From Synechococcus sp. Tobar12-5m-g (GTDB lineage: Bacteria; Cyanobacteriota; Cyanobacteriia; PCC-6307; Cyanobiaceae), in assembly GCF_024345415.1 (NCBI RefSeq), contig NZ_JAGQBB010000008.1, forward strand, positions 1-64,000: a stretch of 64,000 bases of DNA, written 5' to 3'. A model generated the notes under the pieces. It was given only the letters and a program-made list of their open reading frames with translations, was not told the DNA's origin and ran no database searches. Position 1 is the stretch's first letter. Each line of letters starts with the position of its first letter. Of the stretch, positions 45,615-57,986 are shown in pieces. The position numbers and the translations under genes are program-made.

Positions 45615-47366
45615 GAGACTCCTGAACAACAAATTGCACGCCGGCTCGAGTTCAGCCAATGACCAGGGGGGTAGGCAGCTCGAAAACTAGGTTATGCAGT
45701 GACCAGCGAATCGGCTGTCTCAAGCAGGCAGATGGTCCTAAGCGCCACCCAGAGCAAGCCTGGCCGTTGCAAGGTGTGAAACCAAGCAAAGATAGTGACA
45801 AAAAAGAGGCGGAGAAGCCTCATGCTCTTCTCTGCGCACATCACCAGAAATGCCATGGCAATCGAGGTCTCTGCGCCTTTGTCCAGCCGAGCCATAATCA
45901 ATTCAAGAGAATACTTTCGCTTCCCTGTTCCAAAGCAACCTTCCACCTCATTTCGCCTCCTCTGGTCTGCGCTGAGCTGCTGCTTGTGGGCAGCATTGAT
46001 CTCTGGATCCTTTGGTGGCCTCCCTAATCGCTTACCAGATAGCCGTATGTTATTCCTCGTGCAGAAGTTTCTATTCTTGGTGTTGATGTAGATGCGATCA
46101 GCGCAGATTCGCTCGGGGTAACAGCCGAGTTCCTGCTTATATCTCTTGGCTTGTGGAATCAGGTCCTCGGCCTCATTGTATGGATCCCAGCTGATCCTGT
46201 GCAGAAAGGCAAAGCCATTTCGCACAGAGACACTAACTTTGGCGCCAAACTCAACAGCAGCTCTTGCCTTGCCGCGAACAATGGGACGAACCTGCCGCTG
46301 AATCAAGTTGACGATGCGGTCGGGGATGCTGCGCGTCGTGGCGTACAGCAGGATGCTTTGTAGGCGGTGCAGCTCGCTGATCACGAGAAGTTTGTGCCAC
46401 CAATGCGTCTTCAGGCCCGAAAGGCTTGCCCCAGAAGCGATCAAGGCATCGATAGCATCAAGATTACGCTGCAGGTAGTCGAGTTGGCGTCGTATTGCGG
46501 CTTTTATTTATCGACGGCGTGGCTTCTTCTGTTTGGCGACATTTAGGAAAACAGCACGTGCCCTGCCACGATCATATTGGGGCTTGTGTTTCGAAAGTCT
46601 GATTGCCGATCGCACAGATCATCAATGATTCGTTCAGTCGACTCCCTTGCCTCGTTCAGCAACTTCAGATCAGTCGGATAGGTGATGTCCGCTGGCGTGC
46701 AAGAGGCATCGATGGTGAGTGTTCCCCAGTTCTTGCCCTCTGGCCAATCTGCAGGCTTCACGAAATCGTCGAGTGATAGCTGGGTTCCAGCATCAGCGCC
46801 TGGAGCATCAGAGTCGTCGTCATCTGGGAGTGACGACACAGCCTCGATTACCATGGCCTTACGGGGTTCGGCAATCAGTTCGCTTATCCGCTTGAGATCC
46901 TCCTCCGAGAATCGGTTGCGGAAATGAACCATCATTGATGGATCAAACGGCACCTTGCTGGAATAGCCGGCAAAGCCAAGGAAAAACTGCATGTAAGCAT
47001 TTTCTCGGATCTGCTCGACGGTCTCCTCATCGGTCAAGCCAAGCCGCTGCTTGATGAACAGCGCGCCAAACGCCAGGCGTGCAGGCACCCCAGTCGTGGG
47101 GTTGAACTGAGGGGCATATGCTTCTTCTATCTCGTCAGATGGCATCAGCGAGGCGAAAAGAACCCAGCGGTTCTCCGGGTCCAACGTGCCGCCAAAAGGC
47201 ACATGGAACTCGACGATTGAGAGCTGCCCGTTATGGTGTTTTCGGTACATCTGCAGCGTTCAGCAGTTGTAGCAATCGTCAATTGCCCTGTTCGAGGCCA
47301 GTTAATCGGGTCTCGATCACTGAAACAAGTTGCGCCGCAGTCGATCTGGCATTTTCAGGAGTCCCC
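45615..47366 (-). mobile_element. Complete but inactive IS5-type insertion sequence, 1752 bp
   Basis: The left end reads GAGACTCCTGAACAAC inward (from 45615) and the right end, on the minus strand from 47366, reads GGGGACTCCTGAAAATGCC, sharing GACTCCTGAA at matching positions. AATTA flanks both ends (45610-45614 and 47367-47371) and is a plausible target duplication. Inside is one broken transposase gene on the minus strand. IS5-group elements usually make three- or four-base duplications, so the exact duplicated length (TTA, ATTA or AATTA) is unclear. Confidence 0.75.
45692..47250 (-). pseudogene. IS5/IS1182-like DDE transposase with frameshift and nonsense codon
   Basis: The first part (ATG 47250) begins MYRKHHNGQLSIVEFHVPFG and contains PFDPSMMVHFRNRFSEEDL (DUF772-type N domain) and TIDASCTPADITYPTDLKLL (first DDE Asp). 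Reading frame is lost near 46593, where one A appears deleted (RNTSPN in place of a RKHKPQYDRGRAR frame that continues one base over). That continued frame meets an in-frame TAA near 46510 (RRR-stop-IKAAIRRQLDYL), then resumes as the second part to 45692, with ERICADRIYINTKNRNFC and RRNEVEGCFG. Two lesions make it non-functional. Confidence 0.85.
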
Positions 47367-48033: not shown

Positions 48034-51000
48034 TCAGGGTGTAAAGCTGAGCCATTCCCGCGCCCTATTTAGCAACATATCGAACTCCTGCAGTGTGGCT
48101 GACCACTTCCTCACTGTCCCGTCTGAGGAAGCAGTTACTACGAAAAGTCCGTCTGGACTGAAACTGACAGCCCTGACAGGCCCTTTGTGCCCCCTAAATA
48201 GTCTAGTCGGCACAGCAGCATGAGCAGTAGATTTACACTCTAAATCCCATAAATAAGCATTCCGATCCAGGGAACCGCTAACTAAATAACGGCTGCAGGG
48301 ACTGAAACAGGCACTCCAAATAGGAATGGCAGGATCGTGGGTAAAATCCGTGAATAACTTGCGGGTTTTCCAGTTCCAGACATAGAGTTTACCAGCCGAA
48401 GAACTGCCCACGAGATACTTGCAATCAGGGCTAAAATTGACACTCAAGATCGGGCTTTTTCCTCCGGAAAACCCACATACCTTCTTTCCCTGAAGATCCC
48501 ACAAGCAGACGCTGCCGTCGTCTGCGCCACTGGCAAGGAATTTATCGTCAGGACTGAAGCTCACACTCCAAATCGGACCCTTAGCCCCAAGCCACTCGCA
48601 CTGCTGCTGCCCCTGCAGGTTCCAGAGACGAATTGTCTTGTCCGCCGAACCAGTAACCAGCAATTGCCCGTCGGGACTGAAGTTGATACTCCAGACAGAA
48701 TTTTGATGTCCCTTAAATGATTGGAGGCGATTGCCCTCCACATCCCACAGAGAAGCAGTGCCATCGGCAGAGGCGGTAGCGAAATGGAATGCTGTCGGGC
48801 TGAAACTGACTTGCTTGACCCAGCTTGCGTGGACATTAATCTGCTTGAGCGGCCTGTTGTCCACATCCCAACGCTGGACATCCCAGAGACAGACAGTACC
48901 ACCTGAGGAAGCAGTTGCCAGGTATTGACCATCATGACTGAAGCTGGAACTCAACAAAGACCCTTCCTGTCTCTTGACCTGGGGCAGCCGCTGTAAGTTC
49001 CAGAGGTGAATCTTGCGATCGCCGCAGGCAGAAGCCAACAACTCACCTTCGGGGCTGAAGCCAATCCCCTGAACCGGCGCGGCATGAACCAGTTTAGCCA
49101 GCTCGCTACCGTCAAAATCCCAAATGCGCACGGTACAGTCTTCCGAAGCACTGGCTAGGTATAAGTTTTGGGGGTGGAAGCGGACACTAAACACCCAGCC
49201 TTTATGACCTCTTAGGGTTTTATATTTTTTACCGGTTTCTGGGTTCCAGAGTTTGACGCTGTTATCGGAACTACCAGAGGCAAGCATCGTCCCTTCCTTG
49301 TTAAAATTCACGCTCCAGATGGCTGCATCGTGAGCCTCCCAGTCCCGCAGTTTCATTCCTGCTAAATCCCAGAGGCTGATGCTGCCGCTGTTTGAGCCAG
49401 TGGCGAAATAATTGCCATGGGGACTGAAACTGATGCACCAGATAGGACCCTGGGCGGCTAAAAACTGGAGGCGTTCATTGCCTTCTAAGTCGCAGAGGCG
49501 AACTTTACCATCCGTGCCAGCAATAGCCACCAATTTTCCGTCAGGACTGAAGGCGACATCGCGGATGGGCGCGGGATAGGGAATTAACACTAGGGGATTG
49601 CCTTGCGAGTGCAAGTCCCAGAGGCGAGCCGTCCCGTCATCGCAGGCAGAAACGAGATAGCGGCCGTCAGGGCTAAAATCAATGCCCCAGATCCAATTGC
49701 GAGGCTCTTTAAAGATTTTCAACAGTGTTCCCTGCCGGTTCCACAACCGAACGGTGCCGTCTTCTGAACTGCTGGCTAGTCTCTTGCCATCAGGAGCAAA
49801 AATAACGCTGCAAGCGGCTCCTTTATGACCTGACAGCTCTAGGATTTCTTGAATGTTGTCTAAGATATGTTCCAGTACTGACCTCAAGGAATCTGAAGAA
49901 TAGCCTCGCGGAAGCAAGTCTTCTTTAATTGCATTTTGTAGAGTTTCACCCGCATTTGCGATTGTCCGCAAAGCATTGAGTTGGGAGGATTCGGCAAACT
50001 GTTCCAGAGCTTTAGGAACTACCGTATCGAGAGTTAATTGTGCCTTATACTTGGCTCGATTGTATTGCATCCAATAATGGTTGTGCCACTCTAAAATTGC
50101 TTCAGCAAGGATGCTGTGGGAGATTTCGTAGCAGATTTGGCTGGGATTTGTCGGACAACTGACAGGGTTTAGAAGGTTTTGACGTTGTAGTGCCTTTAAG
50201 ATAGTTCGCAGTTCAGCTTCTCCCATACCTGCTTGTTTTGCCAAATCTTCAACGGGGTAGGCAATTTTTGTGCCCCCGGGAGTAATGAGGTAGCCAACGA
50301 TTTTTGCTAGAACTTTGACGGCATTCGGTTTGGCAGACTCAGCCAGCTGTTTTATTTGCTCATTGAAATAGTATTTTATAATCTTCTCGCGCCTACCTAG
50401 GTCTTGGAATGTCACAAGACGCAGGAGATCGGATTTATTATTTCTCTCTTTTGCCCAAAGGCACTGCATGACTAACTGCAAGCAGGCAGTATCAAAGTTA
50501 ACTTCTACTAAGTCTTTGATTATCTCGTCTATTAAGTCTGGTGCAATTCCAACTTTCTCATTTGGATTCTCGGAATTATATTTCTTAAATATAGGGTTGA
50601 CAATTGCTTCGTAGATAGCATCTTCGTCAAGAGGTAATAGTGGCAGTCGGTTGCGAATTATATCAGGGATTGCTCCCTTGAAGCGATCGAGTTTTGAAAG
50701 AAAGTCTTCATCAACGGCAATGAGAAAGTTGACGTTCAGTCCCAGATGGTTGACCGCATTAGGAAACTCTGCTTCAAAGCTGTTCTCTGCCATCTCTGGT
50801 TGAGGATGGTAGAGAAAGTATTCTTCAAATTCATCAAGAATGATATATATCATACCCTGATCGTCGCCGCGGTCGAGGGCTTTGCTATAATCTACTAAAA
50901 TGTCCTCAAAGCTATCAGGTTCTATTGATCTTGGCGGCAATGAATGCCCAGGAATTAACTCTTCAATTTCATTCCTTACTTGCTTGACTAAGCTCATCAG

Positions 51001-51279
51001 AGGATTAGGTTCTTGCCAATCCTTAAAGATGATAACAGCCAACTGAGGAAAACTGAAATTCTCAATATTTTGCTGTGCTAGCCGGTGGAGTTCATGAACC
51101 ACCCCCGCTTGCAACAATGAGGTTTGTCCTACGCTATGCTTACCATAGAGGACGGTCAGTCGGCAACTTTTTAGGTAATCAATAAGTTGCTTTTTCTCTT
51201 TATCTCTGCCAAAGAAAATATCGGCATCTGCTTCGTCAAAAGCGGCTAATCCTTTGTAGGGACAGGTTGGACTTGACAT
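48034..51279 (-). CDS. nSTAND1-like ATPase with 14 WD40 repeats
   Basis: A 1081 aa signal-transduction ATPase. Residues 6-24 (CPYKGLAAFDEADADIFFGRD) are the entry motif of nSTAND1 proteins. The P-loop is GKHSVGQT (46-53), in which Gln replaces the essential Lys. Walker B follows as IYIILDEFEEYF (Asp149, Glu150). A helical region precedes 14 WD40 repeats (about 480-1075; ends such as VRLWNRQG, ARLWDLHS, IRLWNLQG, AYLWDLEC), enough for two seven-bladed propellers. GAGGT precedes ATG 51279. Third gene of an AT-rich operon; probably the sensor and oligomerising platform for the two proteins encoded before it. Confidence 0.88.
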   Translation of the reverse strand: MSSPTCPYKGLAAFDEADADIFFGRDKEKKQLIDYLKSCRLTVLYGKHSVGQTSLLQAGVVHELHRLAQQNIENFSFPQLAVIIFKDWQEPNPLMSLVKQVRNEIEELIPGHSLPPRSIEPDSFEDILVDYSKALDRGDDQGMIYIILDEFEEYFLYHPQPEMAENSFEAEFPNAVNHLGLNVNFLIAVDEDFLSKLDRFKGAIPDIIRNRLPLLPLDEDAIYEAIVNPIFKKYNSENPNEKVGIAPDLIDEIIKDLVEVNFDTACLQLVMQCLWAKERNNKSDLLRLVTFQDLGRREKIIKYYFNEQIKQLAESAKPNAVKVLAKIVGYLITPGGTKIAYPVEDLAKQAGMGEAELRTILKALQRQNLLNPVSCPTNPSQICYEISHSILAEAILEWHNHYWMQYNRAKYKAQLTLDTVVPKALEQFAESSQLNALRTIANAGETLQNAIKEDLLPRGYSSDSLRSVLEHILDNIQEILELSGHKGAACSVIFAPDGKRLASSSEDGTVRLWNRQGTLLKIFKEPRNWIWGIDFSPDGRYLVSACDDGTARLWDLHSQGNPLVLIPYPAPIRDVAFSPDGKLVAIAGTDGKVRLCDLEGNERLQFLAAQGPIWCISFSPHGNYFATGSNSGSISLWDLAGMKLRDWEAHDAAIWSVNFNKEGTMLASGSSDNSVKLWNPETGKKYKTLRGHKGWVFSVRFHPQNLYLASASEDCTVRIWDFDGSELAKLVHAAPVQGIGFSPEGELLASACGDRKIHLWNLQRLPQVKRQEGSLLSSSFSHDGQYLATASSGGTVCLWDVQRWDVDNRPLKQINVHASWVKQVSFSPTAFHFATASADGTASLWDVEGNRLQSFKGHQNSVWSINFSPDGQLLVTGSADKTIRLWNLQGQQQCEWLGAKGPIWSVSFSPDDKFLASGADDGSVCLWDLQGKKVCGFSGGKSPILSVNFSPDCKYLVGSSSAGKLYVWNWKTRKLFTDFTHDPAIPIWSACFSPCSRYLVSGSLDRNAYLWDLECKSTAHAAVPTRLFRGHKGPVRAVSFSPDGLFVVTASSDGTVRKWSATLQEFDMLLNRAREWLSFTP

Positions 51280-51332
51280 TAGTCTCTACCTCGTTTGCTA
51301 TCATTCATCGAGTCAACACATTCTAGACGCAC

Positions 51333-52925
51333 TTAATTATCTTCTGGATTTATTAAAGCGTCCAGTTTGTTGCAAATCTCCACTAATGCGTCATTTAACT
51401 CAGAAGAATCAAGTGTTTGCTGAGGATCAAGCTTATCTAATGGTTTATTTACATCGTAAGCTGCTTGGTAGTTAGCAATTATTTTACCAAGATCAGTTCG
51501 TGTATACCTACAACTTGTCAGACAAAACCAGAATATGGTCAATCCTTCTTCTTCAGCAGCTTCTAGTAGAGGTGGCAGTTCGTTCTTGGTAATAAACTCT
51601 GAGTTTAAGAAATTTGAACTGACTAGCAAGACAGCAACTTTAGTTGAGGCAAGCGCTCTTTTGATTTCTTCTCCCCATTTCATTCCTGTTTTGATATAGG
51701 TGTCATCCCACCATAAGTCACCTTCATCGATTGTACTTCTACCGTACATGTCTTTGAACTTCTCTAGCCATTTGCTATCTTTATGGCTATAGCTAATAAA
51801 TATTCTACTTCGCTGAGGTATTTCAGGAGCAGGAACATTCACTTTAGAGATGTTGGTGACTGGTTTTTTCACGGTAGTAAGTTGAGATTTTAACTGTTTT
51901 TCTAGTTCAATAATGTAGGCTTCTAAAGAATCAATTGCAAGGTTATTGACACCGTATTTATCCCAGAACTTTTCATCCAAACGTTCTGGATGCTCTTGAA
52001 TTGCCCACCATCTTTTGTCAGTTTTATAAAGTTGTTCTCGCCAAATACGAGAGAGAATAAGTCGCAGATTCCAATGGCTGGGGCTGTATTCGAGAAACCA
52101 AAGCCGTCGATTTTTTTCTTGAAGCGCTACCAAAAGACTTGGAGGAAGTAATTCTTTGATACTTCTCTGAGTTAAGTAATCAATAAAGTCGTCTTCAGCA
52201 ATAGTAAATTGTCCACTATCAGCTTTCTCAACTCCTCCATAAAGCTTGAGAATAACTGGGCGCTGCTTGAGGGAGATTTCATAATCTTGAGGGTCTTCAA
52301 TTAGAATGGGTTTTTCGTTAAAGGGGGTATGCAGAAACCGTCCCCCCATTTCATTTCCAATAAATGCCACGACATCAAAATCCTGGTTTGCCTGCTGAAA
52401 AGCCTGCTCTAAGACACTATCTAAACAAGTTGTGACAATTAAGGGATAGGGAGGCGCATAATCATTGTCTTTAAGAAGGCTGGGCAATCTAGCCAAGAAT
52501 TGGTGAACTGGATTGGGTGAATACTTTGATTCTAAGATTTCTCTGAGCATAGCTTCAAGGGTATCTGAATCGCACAGAGATAGGTATTGGGCTACATTGG
52601 CTAATGCTAATTTAGTAATTGTATCCTTGTTGATTAACGGACACTCTGGTGGTAAATGATTATCAGTCGTGTTGCAAAGAGGGCAAGTATTGACATAGCC
52701 CCAGTCATTTTCCTTGGCCAAATGAATTGCCAGTTCATAACTACTGGGAGGGTAGTTGCCATCCTGCCAGTCTACCGGTTCTCCATTTTGTTTTTTGGGG
52801 CGGCCACAGAGGTTAACATCAGAACTCAAGAAAGGAATGATTATTCCCTGTTTGATTGCATCAATAACCACTTTGTAGTGGCTGTTTAGTTGTTTAGAAC
52901 TAGCCTTAGTTTGTGATGCTGGCAT
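51333..52925 (-). CDS. SIR2-like (catalytically degenerate) and TIR domain fusion
   Basis: A 530 aa protein. Residues 15-330 follow the SIR2_2-type fold of defence proteins, but its three active-site motifs are altered: the glycine loop reads [13 protein letters not shown] (34-36, normally GAG), the Asn motif reads TTCLD (165-169, normally TTNYD), and the His motif reads KLYG (227-230, normally KLHG). A CPLC...C insert (81-95) may bind zinc. A TIR domain (372-500) begins [10 protein letters not shown] and keeps Glu449 in [13 protein letters not shown], the position of the NADase Glu. AAGGAAGA lies before ATG 52925. It overlaps the upstream gene by 20 bases. Confidence 0.85.
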
Positions 52926-54120
52926 GGGACTCTTCCTTTTTGATTGTAGTTAAATCGTGAAATCCTTTGCGTCTCTTAAATCGCAAAGAGATGTATATCA
53001 TATCTCTTAGAGAATCTGGGAGATTTGGATGTTCTCCATTGGCAATCTCCTCAAATATAGATAGGGAGCCAGGATAGAGAATCGGATACAAGTTGGAATC
53101 AAAGAGGCAAGAAAAGATTGCCAATTCCTCAATCAAATATTGTTGGCAAATCTGGAGAAAGTCATTTCCCGAGATACTGGTTGCATCTACAGCGAGGTGG
53201 CGTTGCACGAATTGGAAAGAGAAAGTATTAACTGCGTTGACAAGTCTGGTATCATTCTTCATTAAATCCTCAATTATATCATAATATTCTCTGTAACTGT
53301 CTGTCTGCTGGATATCTGAGCAATAAACAAATTCAAATGGACAAGAATTCAAGTAGCGATCAAATACGGGTAATTCAGCATTAATGTATTTTCCACCCGC
53401 ATGGAGCGCTTGGACAAATGCTTGTCTTTCTGTCAAGCCGTGATTGTCTATTAGTAAACTCAGGCGGTATAGACTATCGCCCAGCAATACCCTACAGCTG
53501 CGAAAACGCTTAGCTATCCAGTCAGTCATGGCGATTAGTTTTGCCGTTGAGAAGCTGGGATTGTCTAGGCTTACTCCCAAATAACAACTATCATATGACG
53601 CAAGCTTCCCTCTCGCAATCTCAGGAGCAACTTCATTTACAAAGACATGGTATTTTGGTTTTGTGGGGATTTCAATGTCCTCTTTCATATCACTTAATGA
53701 CACCATATCAACGTAGGCCATAGAAAATACATTCCTTGGGGAATCACCCAGGAAGCTTATCTCTCCAAACTGTTTTAATTCAGGCGCAAAAAGTACATTG
53801 AGACCATAAAGCCTGCCTATGGGTGCGATGATACCCAATGAATGATTCGGCAGTATTAATTTAATATCATCAGCGGTTAACACTGTGATTTTACTAGCCT
53901 TAAGCCTATTTTGCAAATCAACCAAGTCAATTTGCTTGCAATGGGAGATAACAGCTATTACAATTTGATGACCATCAATTTCCAGTAAGCAAGAATCAAC
54001 AAATTCCATCCCAAGCATGGCTTGCTGGTCTTGTATTTCTTCCATGCTGCAAGAATTTGAATAACTTGTTATTGTATATTTGACCTGATTGCCGTCAAGA
54101 AAGTCTTTAAGAGCTAACAT
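52906..54120 (-). CDS. YbaK-like tRNA-editing domain fused to cyclodipeptide synthase domain
   Basis: A 404 aa protein, first gene of the operon. Residues 1-145 resemble YbaK/ProX aminoacyl-tRNA deacylases ([18 protein letters not shown], then [21 protein letters not shown]), though the usual substrate-contacting Lys appears to be Asp42. Residues 157-385 resemble tRNA-dependent cyclodipeptide synthases: [17 protein letters not shown] supplies Ser184 (AlbC Ser37), [11 protein letters not shown] supplies Tyr328 and Glu332 (AlbC Tyr178, Glu182) and LYPGSLSIF supplies Tyr349 (AlbC Tyr202), with near-identical spacing. Such enzymes join two aminoacyl-tRNAs into a cyclic dipeptide. The fusion and its TIR/STAND neighbours are, to my knowledge, unusual. 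Confidence 0.75.
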
Positions 54121-54156
54121 TAGTTTCTCAATTTCAGGGCAATTAGAAGCTAACTG

Positions 54157-54477
54157 CTATTTAAGCACATAAAGGTAGATTGTCAATGCCTGCGTAAGGA
54201 CTGGATAGGGCTTCCTGAGAGAGTGAGCCTGAGCCCGAACTGAACGACCGAGGTGGATACTCTGAGCAACAACATCGTTGAGGTCAAACGGATCAGGAAG
54301 ATCGGAAAAGGGCAAGTCGATTCGTTCCGCCAGGCTTCGAGCAAGCCAGTGATACAAAGGAATCGAAGTTCCATCCTCTTCAACAGTCACCAGCTCTGGG
54401 CCGATCACTGGAATCACCTTGCCCTCCTCCACAAAGAGCAGCAGGTCTTCCCAGAATCGCTCCAGAGATTCAGGCAT
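54157..54477 (-). pseudogene. Truncated N terminus of a SIR2-like protein
   Basis: A 106 aa frame opening MPESLERFWEDLLLFVEEGK and VIPVIGPELVTVEEDG, the start of defence-type SIR2 proteins with the variant loop VIGPEL. DLPDPFDLNDVVAQ is still recognisable, then the sequence diverges and stops at 54157. A full SIR2 domain needs about 250 residues, so the rest is gone. The open frame extends upstream of the ATG (KIFILSFWGLGE), so the true start is unclear. The join to AT-rich sequence at about 54200 marks the edge of the inserted operon. Confidence 0.6.
54158..54186 (-). promoter_or_regulatory. Sigma70-type promoter of the CDPS-TIR-STAND operon
   Basis: On the minus strand TTGACA (54181-54186) and TAAATA (54158-54163) are separated by exactly 17 bases. 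Transcription would start near 54150, about 30 bases before ATG 54120. The -10 box lies at the very end of the truncated SIR2 frame. Confidence 0.65.
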
Positions 54478-54745
54478 TTCGCCAAGGCCCCAGAAGCTCA
54501 GAATGAAGATCTTCGGCTTGGGAGCGACGTCGTCGAACTGAAGATAACGGTCTCACACGCGATCACCATTTTGATCCAACAGTAGGCAAGGCATGCCTGA
54601 GCGTCAAGAGATTTGTTGGCCGTTAGCCGCTCCATCAGCCCACAAAGCGTTCAGATCGATCCAGCGTTGTGAAATCCTTCAAACAAATCAGCCCGATCTT
54701 TGATGTTGGCTAAGGTTGCTTCAGTGCCTGAATGCGCAACTCCCC

Positions 54746-56743
54746 ATGCCAGTCCTGCCCCATGCGTTTGTGGTGATGCCCTTCGGCCGCAAGCCTGGAG
54801 GCGATGGGGTGCCGATTGATTTCAATCGCATCTACTCCAACTTCATTCATCCGGCCCTGAAGAAGGCTGGCCTGGAGCCTTTCCGTGCCGACGAGGAGCA
54901 GCGTGCCGGCAACATCCACAGCGACATGTTCCAGGAACTGCTGCTCGCCGATCTGGTGGTGGCCGACCTCACCATTGACAATCCCAATGTCTGGTATGAG
55001 CTCGGGGTCCGCCACGCTCTGAGCGCCCGGGGCGTGGTGCTGATCTGCGGCGGCAGGGTCCCCACCGCCTTTGATCTCCAACCCGACCGAAAACTGCGCT
55101 ACGGCCTGCTTGATGGTGTTCCCGATCCCACCACCCTGCCCAGCGATATCGAGAACCTGGCGGACATGGTGCGGGCCACCATGGAGAGCTGGCAGGGCCG
55201 ACGCATCAGCCCCGTGTATGCCCTGTTGCCCAATCTTCAGGAGCCCGACTGGAGAAGCTTGCGCGTTGGGGGCGTATGCGAATTCTGGGAGCAACATGAC
55301 GCCTGGCTGGAGCGGATCGAGCGCGCCCGCCGTGCCAACGACATCGGCGACATGCTCGTGCTCGCCGACGAGGGCCCCGTGGCCGCGTTCCGTGCTGAAG
55401 CCTGGATTGCTGCCGGCACCGCTCTGCGCAAGGCAGAGCGATTCCGGCTCGCCCTGGAGCAGTTGGAGAAAGGCCTGGCCATCAAGCCCACCGACCTCAA
55501 GGCACTCCAGGAGAAGGGCACCTGTCTGCAGCGTTTAGCGATCGCAGGGGAGCCCGGCCACAGCCTCGATCGGGCGCGCGACCACTACCGCAAGGTGTTG
55601 GAAGCGCATCCGAAGGATGCGGAAACCAGGGCCCTCGCCGCCAGGGTGGACAAGGACGCCTGGGTGGATGGGTGGCGCCTAACCGATACCCCGCCGGAGC
55701 AGAAGCGGGCGGAGGCCGCCGAAGCCATCGACCTGCTCACGATGGCGATCGATCAGTACGCGGCGGCGTTCCGCTCCAATCCGGCCCATTACTACTCCGG
55801 CATCAATGCCCTCACCCTGATGCATCTGGCCTTGAATCTCACCGGCGACCACCGCTGTGATCACCAGATGGAGGTGATGGCTGGGGCGGTGCGCTTCGCG
55901 GCCGAGTGCGAGGAGGATCCCGCTCAGCAGTTTTGGGCCCTGGCCACCCTTGCGGATCTCGAGGTGCTGGTGGGAACCCCCGAGGGGGTACAGGGGGCCT
56001 ATCGCAAGGCCATCGCCCGCAATGACAAGGATCGTTTTGCACTCGAATCCGTGCGCTCCCAGTTGCTGCTCCTGCAGGATCTGGAATTCCAGCCTGAAAC
56101 GGTGAGCGTGGCGATTGCCACCCTCGATCGTGCCATCGAGAAAACCACTCCCGCCGCGGTGCGCTGGCGGCCTCGCCAGGCCATCCTGTTCAGCGGCCAC
56201 ATCATGGACACGCCCAACCGCCCCCAGCCCAGGTTCCCTGCCGCCATGGAGGCCGCAGCCACGGAAAGAATCGGCGCTGCCCTCGATGCCCTCGGCGCCG
56301 GTGCCGATGACATCACCTACTGCCAGGCAGCCGCGGGCGGTGATCTGATCTTTCTGGAGGCCGCCCTGCAGAGGCAGGTGCGATGCCAGGTGCTGCTGCC
56401 TTTTGATGAGGCCACGTTTCTGCAGCGCTCGGTGCTTCCATCCGTGCATGGGGAACAGTGGCGTGATCGCTATTTCGCCATGAAGGAAAGGCTCACGCTG
56501 CCCATTCGCTTCATGCCCGATGAACTGGGCCCCACTCCGCCACAGCTGAATGCCTTTGAACGCTGCAATATCTGGCTGCTCAACTCCACGCTGGCCTGTG
56601 GGATTGATCGTGTGCGGTTCATCGCCCTCTGGAACGGTGCTGGGGGCGATGGCCCCGGCGGCACCGCCCATCTGCATCAAGAAGTGCAACGCCGCACCGG
56701 CCAGGTGAGCTGGATCGACACCCGCTCCCTACCTTGTGCCTAG
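54746..56743 (+). CDS. Deoxyribosyltransferase-like / TPR (DUF4071) / SLOG-like protein
   Basis: A 665 aa protein with three parts. Residues 1-100 (HAFVVMPFG, ADLVVADLTIDNPNVWYELG, Glu85) resemble the nucleoside deoxyribosyltransferase-like fold related to TIR. Residues 160-450 are TPR-like helices matching the TRAFs-binding/DUF4071 family (RAEAWIAAGTALRKAERFRL, LALEQLEKGLAIKP). Residues 475-665 (QAILFSGHIMDTPNRPQPRF, QAAAGGDLIFLEAAL, RTGQVSWIDTR) look like a SLOG/Rossmann nucleotide-handling domain. TTG 54716 is an alternative start. GC-rich, unlike the operon to its left. The patatin gene follows directly. Confidence 0.72.
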   Translation: MPVLPHAFVVMPFGRKPGGDGVPIDFNRIYSNFIHPALKKAGLEPFRADEEQRAGNIHSDMFQELLLADLVVADLTIDNPNVWYELGVRHALSARGVVLICGGRVPTAFDLQPDRKLRYGLLDGVPDPTTLPSDIENLADMVRATMESWQGRRISPVYALLPNLQEPDWRSLRVGGVCEFWEQHDAWLERIERARRANDIGDMLVLADEGPVAAFRAEAWIAAGTALRKAERFRLALEQLEKGLAIKPTDLKALQEKGTCLQRLAIAGEPGHSLDRARDHYRKVLEAHPKDAETRALAARVDKDAWVDGWRLTDTPPEQKRAEAAEAIDLLTMAIDQYAAAFRSNPAHYYSGINALTLMHLALNLTGDHRCDHQMEVMAGAVRFAAECEEDPAQQFWALATLADLEVLVGTPEGVQGAYRKAIARNDKDRFALESVRSQLLLLQDLEFQPETVSVAIATLDRAIEKTTPAAVRWRPRQAILFSGHIMDTPNRPQPRFPAAMEAAATERIGAALDALGAGADDITYCQAAAGGDLIFLEAALQRQVRCQVLLPFDEATFLQRSVLPSVHGEQWRDRYFAMKERLTLPIRFMPDELGPTPPQLNAFERCNIWLLNSTLACGIDRVRFIALWNGAGGDGPGGTAHLHQEVQRRTGQVSWIDTRSLPCA

Positions 56744-56774
56744 GCCAGTGGTGGCCCCCTTCGATCAGCCCATC

Positions 56775-57986
56775 ATGACTGACGTCTCCGCAGATCATCC
56801 CATCCTGGCCCGGATGAGGAAGGAAGGGCCCAAGAAGATCCTCACCTGCGATGGTGGAGGCATCCGCGGGCTGATCAGCGTGGAGATCCTCGCCAAACTC
56901 GAGGCGGATCTGCGTATAAAGCTAGGGCAACCCGAGCTCCTTCTGGGCGACTATTTCGATTTCATCTGCGGCACCAGCACGGGGGGCATCATCGCCGCGT
57001 GCCTATCGTCCGGGATGTCTGTGAGCCAGATTCGCGACTTCTACGTGAGCAACGGTTCCAGCATGTTCGAGCGGGCCAAGTGGTACATGCAACTGCATCA
57101 GAAGTATGAAGCCGAACCCCTGGCCTTGCTGCTGCAGCAGGCGCTGACCTGTCAGCTCAACGGCCCCGGTTCCATCTACAACGAAAACGATCCCCCCGTT
57201 GAACTCGGCGATCTCAGGATGCGTGGGCTGCTGATGCTCGTTCTGCGCAACCACAATACCGATTCCCCCTGGCCGGTTTGCAACAACCCCCTGGCCAAGT
57301 ACAACCAACTGGATCGGAAGGATTGCAACCTTCATCTGCCGCTCTGGCAGCTGGTGAGGGCAAGCACGGCGGCGCCCACGTTCTTTCCGCCCGAAGTGGT
57401 GACCTTTGCTGCGGGGACCAACCGGGAGTACCAGTTCGTGTTCGTGGATGGGGGCATCACCACCTACAACAATCCCGCCTACCTGGCCTTCCAGATGGCC
57501 ACCGCCAGCCCGTACAAGATCAATTGGACCACAGGGGTTGATCAGATGCTGATCGTTTCAGTGGGCACGGGCAACGCTCCCGCCGCCAGGCCTGACTTTC
57601 GCCCGGAGGAACTTTCACGGCTCGGCCTTGCCATTACGGTTCCCTCCGCGCTGATGAATGCCGCCACAGCGGGCTGGGACATGGTGTGCCGCGTGTTGGG
57701 CGAGTGCCGCTATGGCGGGGAGGTGGATCGCGAGTTCGGCGCCATGATCCAGGCTCCGAATACGCCTGCGGGAGAGAGCAACTGGAGTGGGCTAAAGCAG
57801 TTCGCTTATGTTCGCTACGACCCCCTCACAAGCCGTGAGGGGCTGAATGATCTCGATCTCCCGGATGTGAGCGATAAGGCCATGGCAGGCATGGATGACG
57901 TCAAACTCATTCCCGAGCTCCAGCGGGTGGGAGAGGCCTACGCCGGGCGTCACGTGAAGATCGATCACCTCGCGGGCTTCGTGTGA
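56775..57986 (+). CDS. Patatin-like phospholipase
   Basis: A 403 aa lipid acyl hydrolase. Oxyanion loop CDGGGIRG (26-32), nucleophile motif GTSTGG with Ser68, and the catalytic Asp225 in VDGG complete the Ser-Asp dyad. AAPTFFPP precedes the Asp as in CapV-type bacterial patatins. GTG 56736, overlapping the upstream stop, could add 13 residues and would make the pair translationally coupled. With the nucleotide-handling partner upstream it fits an effector that attacks the cell's own membrane on a signal; this is inference. Confidence 0.88.
   Translation: MTDVSADHPILARMRKEGPKKILTCDGGGIRGLISVEILAKLEADLRIKLGQPELLLGDYFDFICGTSTGGIIAACLSSGMSVSQIRDFYVSNGSSMFERAKWYMQLHQKYEAEPLALLLQQALTCQLNGPGSIYNENDPPVELGDLRMRGLLMLVLRNHNTDSPWPVCNNPLAKYNQLDRKDCNLHLPLWQLVRASTAAPTFFPPEVVTFAAGTNREYQFVFVDGGITTYNNPAYLAFQMATASPYKINWTTGVDQMLIVSVGTGNAPAARPDFRPEELSRLGLAITVPSALMNAATAGWDMVCRVLGECRYGGEVDREFGAMIQAPNTPAGESNWSGLKQFAYVRYDPLTSREGLNDLDLPDVSDKAMAGMDDVKLIPELQRVGEAYAGRHVKIDHLAGFV

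Follow-up and report, generated by a model that had tools for sequence, protein, structure and literature searches.

Among the systems closest to the locus described here, Avs5 (AVAST type 5; SIR2-STAND-TPR) is a single protein in which an active SIR2 NADase with the motifs GAG, TTNxD and HG or NG is coupled to an nSTAND3 NTPase (PMC12931631), Thoeris consists of ThsA (SIR2-SLOG) and ThsB (TIR), and the nSTAND1/EAD multi-effector systems of multicellular prokaryotes carry interchangeable effectors which include TIR, SIR2 and PNPase (PMC7159879, PMC8195603). Effectors of the cyclodipeptide synthase (CDPS), YbaK or aminoacyl-tRNA type are mentioned in neither of the last two papers (eLife 2020 and 2021), and no CDPS-containing defence, TIR, STAND or conflict system was found in the literature, which was searched in open-access PMC only and in which absence is weak evidence. 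The locus analyzed here comprises three genes of Synechococcus sp. Tobar12-5m-g, encoding a YbaK-CDPS fusion, a SIR2-TIR protein and an nSTAND1-WD40 protein, and lies within the first 64,000 nucleotides of contig NZ_JAGQBB010000008.1 (assembly GCF_024345415.1), a stretch referred to throughout as the window. To our knowledge, CDPS activity has been known only from natural-product pathways (antibiotics, pigments), with charged tRNAs as substrates. From gene content and recurrence we lean towards reading the locus as a modular STAND-type conflict system, probably anti-phage, with the CDPS as its effector.

The window trio occupies approximately 6 kb of the minus strand with all three frames open, and is ordered in the direction of transcription as YbaK-CDPS (52906..54120, 404 amino acids; assigned by Pfam, PDB alignments, an AlphaFold model and a residue table), SIR2-TIR (51333..52925, 530 amino acids; Pfam and alignments) and an nSTAND1 NTPase-like protein with 14 WD40 repeats (48034..51279, 1081 amino acids; Pfam and Walker motif alignment). 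The open reading frames of the first two genes overlap by 20 bases (52906..52925, minus strand), where they are likely to be translationally coupled, and 53 bases separate SIR2-TIR from the STAND gene. An earlier note on this DNA, made from the letters alone, had described three same-strand genes overlapping or within 53 bases of each other, as was found, and its domain calls (YbaK, CDPS, SIR2, TIR with its Glu, STAND-WD40) agree with Pfam, with structure matches for the CDPS and YbaK parts and with an alignment to 3h16. The clear promoter which it had also described was not recovered, as a consensus scan gave no sigma-70-type match just upstream of 54120 and a TTGACA near 54184 has a poor -10 element.

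With respect to the fusion protein, both CDPS (PF16715, 2.6e-10) and tRNA_edit (PF04073, 1.8e-9) pass the Pfam cut-offs, and the source genome holds a single CDPS as measured by a PF16715 search. Residues 1-153 are YbaK/tRNA_edit-like and residues 156-383 form a CDPS of the XYP type. In the AlphaFold model (pLDDT 80) the CDPS part can be superposed on 9j61, the CDPS of Streptomyces sapporonensis (Z 29.3, 33-34% identity; sequence match E 2.7e-43), and also on other solved CDPSs, and the YbaK part matches 3op6 (Z 18.6). Residues S184, D215, Y328, E332, Y349 and P350 are invariant in 33/33 aligned CDPS relatives, and we take S184, Y328, E332, Y349 and P350 to correspond to the AlbC catalytic residues Ser37, Tyr178, Glu182, Tyr202 and Pro203. 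Judged by these positions, all CDPS catalytic residues are retained and the domain appears complete as an enzyme. The YbaK part keeps the GXXXP loop and has lost the catalytic Lys (K46; PMC9425024), the site reading AKT in 3op6, VDS (Asp) in the window, and VEA and IEA (Glu) in the two related loci L077 and L078 presented below; judged by sequence, this YbaK domain is degenerate. Bicyclomycin is produced by S. sapporonensis (PMC6934819), whose CDPS BcmA yields cyclo(Ile-Leu), and 9j61 is presumably this BcmA. CDPSs were described as standalone in 2010 (PMC2922099), and the fusions listed in 2018 carried only a C-terminal methyltransferase, P450 or ABC-transporter (PMC5816076); a YbaK fusion is mentioned in neither paper.

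In another cyanobacterial order, hidden Markov model (HMM) searches of first 245 and then 391 genomes identified six further YbaK-CDPS genes (L077, L078, L079, L080, L081 and L115). The YbaK part was above the Pfam cut-off in L077 and L078, below it in L080 and, in L079 and L081, recognizable only from the alignment; L115 was not scanned. An earlier genome-wide pattern scan had given five loci, all with a YbaK-less CDPS, as its patterns were narrow. Both L077 and L078 belong to one distant cyanobacterium, G399, and both adjoin SIR2-like and nSTAND1-WD40 genes. The full-length YbaK-CDPS proteins of the window, L077 and L078 share 37-48% identity (window to L077 44%, window to L078 37%), and the genes stand in three arrangements: CDPS, SIR2-TIR, STAND in the window; CDPS followed after approximately 440 bases by a SIR2-nSTAND-WD40 fusion in L077, the SIR2 part of which is 60% identical to that of the window; and SIR2, STAND, CDPS in L078, where the CDPS begins approximately 19 bases after the nSTAND1-WD40 gene. 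SIR2-like/nSTAND1 neighbours were found at 3/6 YbaK-CDPS loci with readable neighbours (L115 sits at a contig end) versus 0/26 YbaK-less CDPS loci, for which the hypergeometric chance is approximately 0.004, calculated by hand with loci taken as independent, a figure which relatedness makes approximate. In the CDPS tree the window sequence pairs with L077 (100/98), and the two group with L078 and L115 at moderate support (91/65); this is most simply read as a single recruitment with later rearrangement. Searches of phage records and viral contigs yielded no relatives of the CDPS fusion; among plasmids the window protein had no match, and the L078 fusion only YbaK-region matches among the matches listed.

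Since the TIR domain is absent from L077 and L078, the core consists of the CDPS, the SIR2-like protein and nSTAND1-WD40. The earlier note had proposed a new conflict system with TIR and CDPS outputs and a survey of the neighbours of YbaK-CDPS fusions. The CDPS component is supported by such a survey, recurring beside SIR2-like and nSTAND1-WD40 twice in another cyanobacterial order and in different gene orders; the TIR component is not constant. The note had named the trio in one genome only, or natural-product neighbours only, as outcomes speaking against the proposal, and L077 and L078 display neither.

About ten loci place a member of the SIR2-like family beside nSTAND1, and the enzyme attached differs between them: a C-terminal TIR in the window, L042, L141 and L145, an N-terminal metallophosphatase in L043, CHAT in L044 and a nucleoside phosphorylase (PNP) in L142 and L144. 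As this pair recurs without a CDPS, carrying other effector domains, the CDPS seems to take the place of an effector. The TIR is one of several swapped effectors and is missing from L077 and L078, and it is therefore considered optional; in those two loci, where no other effector domain is found and the SIR2 is apparently dead, the CDPS is the only enzyme left. In L142 and L144 the SIR2-like-nucleoside phosphorylase fusion and nSTAND1 are accompanied by a small SLATT-type-looking membrane protein (no Pfam match in L142), and this looks like another effector version of the SIR2-like/nSTAND1 system.

The window SIR2-TIR protein matches SIR2_2 (1.7e-13) and TIR_2 (4.8e-10) in Pfam, with the SIR2-like domain at approximately residues 15-345 and the C-terminal TIR at approximately 372-525; its AlphaFold model (pLDDT 55) was too poor for use. 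The SIR2-like family profile matches ThsA at 1e-5. The motifs GAG, TTNxD and HG read SSD, TTCLD and YG in the window, in agreement with the degenerate SIR2 of the earlier note. Relative to ThsA, the catalytic His is lost in 6/6 SIR2-like members aligned (KLHG to KLYG, Tyr), and in the window, L077 and L042 the catalytic Asn is also lost (TTNxD to TTCLD or TACLD) and GAG altered. The Avs5 SIR2 tolerates HG to NG and does not tolerate loss of the Asn, N110A abolishing immunity (PMC12931631). The SIR2 as an NADase effector, and with it the NAD+ depletion by SIR2 proposed earlier, was dropped as its catalytic motifs are lost, and a scaffold or adaptor role appears more fitting for the same reason. 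The Glu within ITKNEL of the TIR domain is aligned to that within PQKEL of 3h16, and we take this to be the TIR catalytic Glu. By fold family and this Glu, the domain is a predicted member of the TIR NADase family.

As the pairing of a CDPS with a sensor recurs in a distant cyanobacterium, the CDPS may serve as a weapon or an alarm signal against invaders, a defence function which we infer from architecture and genomic context. A mechanism of immunity via tRNA-dependent cyclodipeptide synthesis can be put forward tentatively. The 14-WD40 propeller would sense an invader molecule and, as in STAND biology, the nSTAND1 domain would oligomerize; the catalytically dead SIR2-like protein would act as an adaptor or scaffold coupling the STAND protein to whichever attached or co-encoded effector is present. 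The genes for SIR2-like, STAND and effector proteins occur together in these loci, and we infer the physical coupling of their products. The activated CDPS would then join the residues of two aminoacyl-tRNAs into a cyclic dipeptide, its dead YbaK domain would hold the tRNA or have a regulatory part, and the output would be either depletion of charged tRNA with translation arrest or a small-molecule signal. Depletion is slightly favoured, as the three loci share no evident candidate for a cyclic-dipeptide receptor. In the window genome the TIR domain would provide a second output. If this is correct, CDPSs, so far makers of antibiotics and pigments only, would gain an immune role, charged tRNA (or a diketopiperazine messenger) would join the targets of STAND systems, and some cyanobacterial XYP CDPSs that seemed inactive in E. 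coli would acquire a possible function. It would also be clear why SIR2 proteins without catalytic residues persist beside STAND genes, namely as dead adaptors to which different effectors can be joined.

Several observations weigh against a functioning system of this kind, and the first of these concern the STAND protein. The window protein matches nSTAND1 (PF20703, 3.2e-34) and keeps Walker B (IYIILDEFEEY); its Walker A (residues ~44-53) reads GKHSVGQT(S), with the lysine lost, where relatives have GxSGVGK[ST]. The L077 protein lacks the whole P-loop region through in-frame deletion or fusion, and only the L078 protein has Walker A and B intact, together with 14 WD40 repeats. With Walker A mutated in one locus and deleted in another, two of the three may be decayed and the window copy may be impaired, although the loss may instead represent a shift to independence of nucleoside triphosphate (NTP). 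The window locus as a whole could accordingly be a decayed or dormant, horizontally acquired remnant whose STAND protein can no longer bind NTP, and the truncated and transposase-like frames alongside the trio (see below) are consistent with this. We consider it an unlikely explanation, though a serious one, as the three frames remain open over 6 kb, the 14 WD40 repeats and the full CDPS catalytic set are present, and function may survive loss of the P-loop. In addition, changes at third codon positions exceed those at second positions (0.60 versus 0.24 for the CDPS), so that the genes are taken to be under selection.

The remaining points against concern the link of the CDPS to its neighbours. 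The association is known from two genomes only, with two of the three loci in one of them; the YbaK-CDPS genes L079, L080 and L081 have no STAND or SIR2 neighbours; among the nearest CDPS lineages are some that are linked to P450s and resemble natural-product enzymes; and some of the XYP CDPSs that showed no activity when assayed in E. coli came from cyanobacteria (PMC5816076). SIR2-TIR and nSTAND1-WD40 might then constitute the whole conflict system, with the YbaK-CDPS a natural-product or housekeeping neighbour residing in the same variable islands with a role of its own. The SIR2-TIR and STAND pair found without a CDPS in L042 and L141, the solo YbaK-CDPS genes and the linkage of CDPS relatives to P450 or TerB genes are all in keeping with this. 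It is nevertheless rather improbable in our estimation, as the adjacency survives three gene orders and a divergence to 37-48% identity, the spacing is tight in both the window (20-base overlap) and L078 (gap of approximately 19 bases), and the CDPS would be the sole enzyme of L077 and L078.

A CDPS acting as effector is also to be distinguished from one whose cyclic dipeptide would, as a signal, activate the TIR (or SIR2-like) protein, a Thoeris-like arrangement with a new messenger. An operon that combines SIR2-like, TIR and a small-molecule synthase does recall the logic of Thoeris, and the CDPS is related to 9j61 of the bicyclomycin producer; the TIR is missing from L077 and L078, no SLOG-type ligand-binding domain was detected by Pfam in SIR2-TIR, and the TIR carries its own Glu, so that we regard this explanation as improbable. 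A natural-product locus making a diketopiperazine, for which the known range of CDPS activity and the P450 neighbours in relatives L117 and L119 could be cited, is very improbable since, as the earlier note had remarked for tailoring oxidases and P450s in the window, no tailoring enzyme or transporter adjoins the CDPS there or in L077 and L078.

Among the YbaK-less CDPS relatives, most pair with a TerB-like gene and a few with a P450. The TerB-like gene stands mostly next to this group (L082, L085, L086, L088, L089, L090, L117-L121, L123-L125, L127 and L129), and in L082 TerB and CDPS are fused in one protein of 454 amino acids. A CDPS beside a P450 (PF00067) was observed in large-genome cyanobacteria (L117 7202-9687, L119 5246-8003, L116/L007), likely a diketopiperazine natural-product pair. 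In three cases (L009 1789-4619, L079 11721-14822, L088 4147-7605) a NACHT gene is found a few kb or less from a CDPS relative, and that of L079 encodes an NNH2 helical domain together with HEAT repeats; the proximity may be fortuitous, since genes of this type can be frequent there.

The window trio lies within a low-GC island of roughly 6 kb (approximately 40% GC at 50-54 kb versus approximately 68% at 40-44 kb and in the genome). Just upstream of the CDPS start, a truncated open frame of 106 amino acids (54157..54477, minus strand) without a Pfam match looks, by eye, like the N-terminal portion of a further SIR2-like gene (VIPVIGPEL) and likely represents the right edge of the island; it had no match in those parts of the source genome that were compared. 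Together with the mutated Walker A and the replaced YbaK Lys, this frame goes beyond what the earlier note had seen in these genes. Transposase-like broken frames, judged by eye, lie just past the left side (45692-47250, minus strand). An empty insertion site was sought in close relatives; the genus comprises only four genomes, and the flank was present in none of them. Adjoining the island at 54716-57986 on the plus strand is a TPR-S sensor protein (PF20308) beside a patatin-like phospholipase matching PADLOC effector models, which would be a second conflict-type pair and is counted as context for a defence role. Elsewhere in the same genome (contig C47, 84000-111000; L147, L148) several TIR proteins cluster with apparently caspase-like genes.

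Compared with the described systems, the CDPS locus resembles Avs5 in coupling a SIR2-like domain to a STAND NTPase with C-terminal repeats, and falls outside Avs5 in having mostly separate genes, nSTAND1 with WD40 repeats, a SIR2 without its catalytic residues and an added CDPS. With Thoeris it shares SIR2 and TIR domains within one system; it differs in that no SLOG was detected, the SIR2 is inactive by sequence, the TIR is fused to the SIR2, and STAND and CDPS are present, and it is not assigned to Thoeris. The CDPS part has the fold, the catalytic Ser/Tyr/Glu/Tyr and the YP signature of XYP CDPSs (9j61; PMC5816076), whereas the N-terminal YbaK-like domain, and STAND/SIR2 neighbours in place of tailoring enzymes, set it apart; the YbaK part shares the fold and GXXXP loop of YbaK/ProXp trans-editing domains, but its catalytic Lys is replaced by Asp or Glu in the STAND-linked members. 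With the nSTAND1/EAD systems it has in common nSTAND1, interchangeable effectors and cyanobacterial hosts, although SIR2 is an effector there and looks like an adaptor here. On grounds firmer than those available to the earlier note, the locus can be read as a STAND/SIR2 conflict system with a new kind of effector and a reorganized core, in which the TIR is optional and the SIR2-like protein would serve as adaptor.

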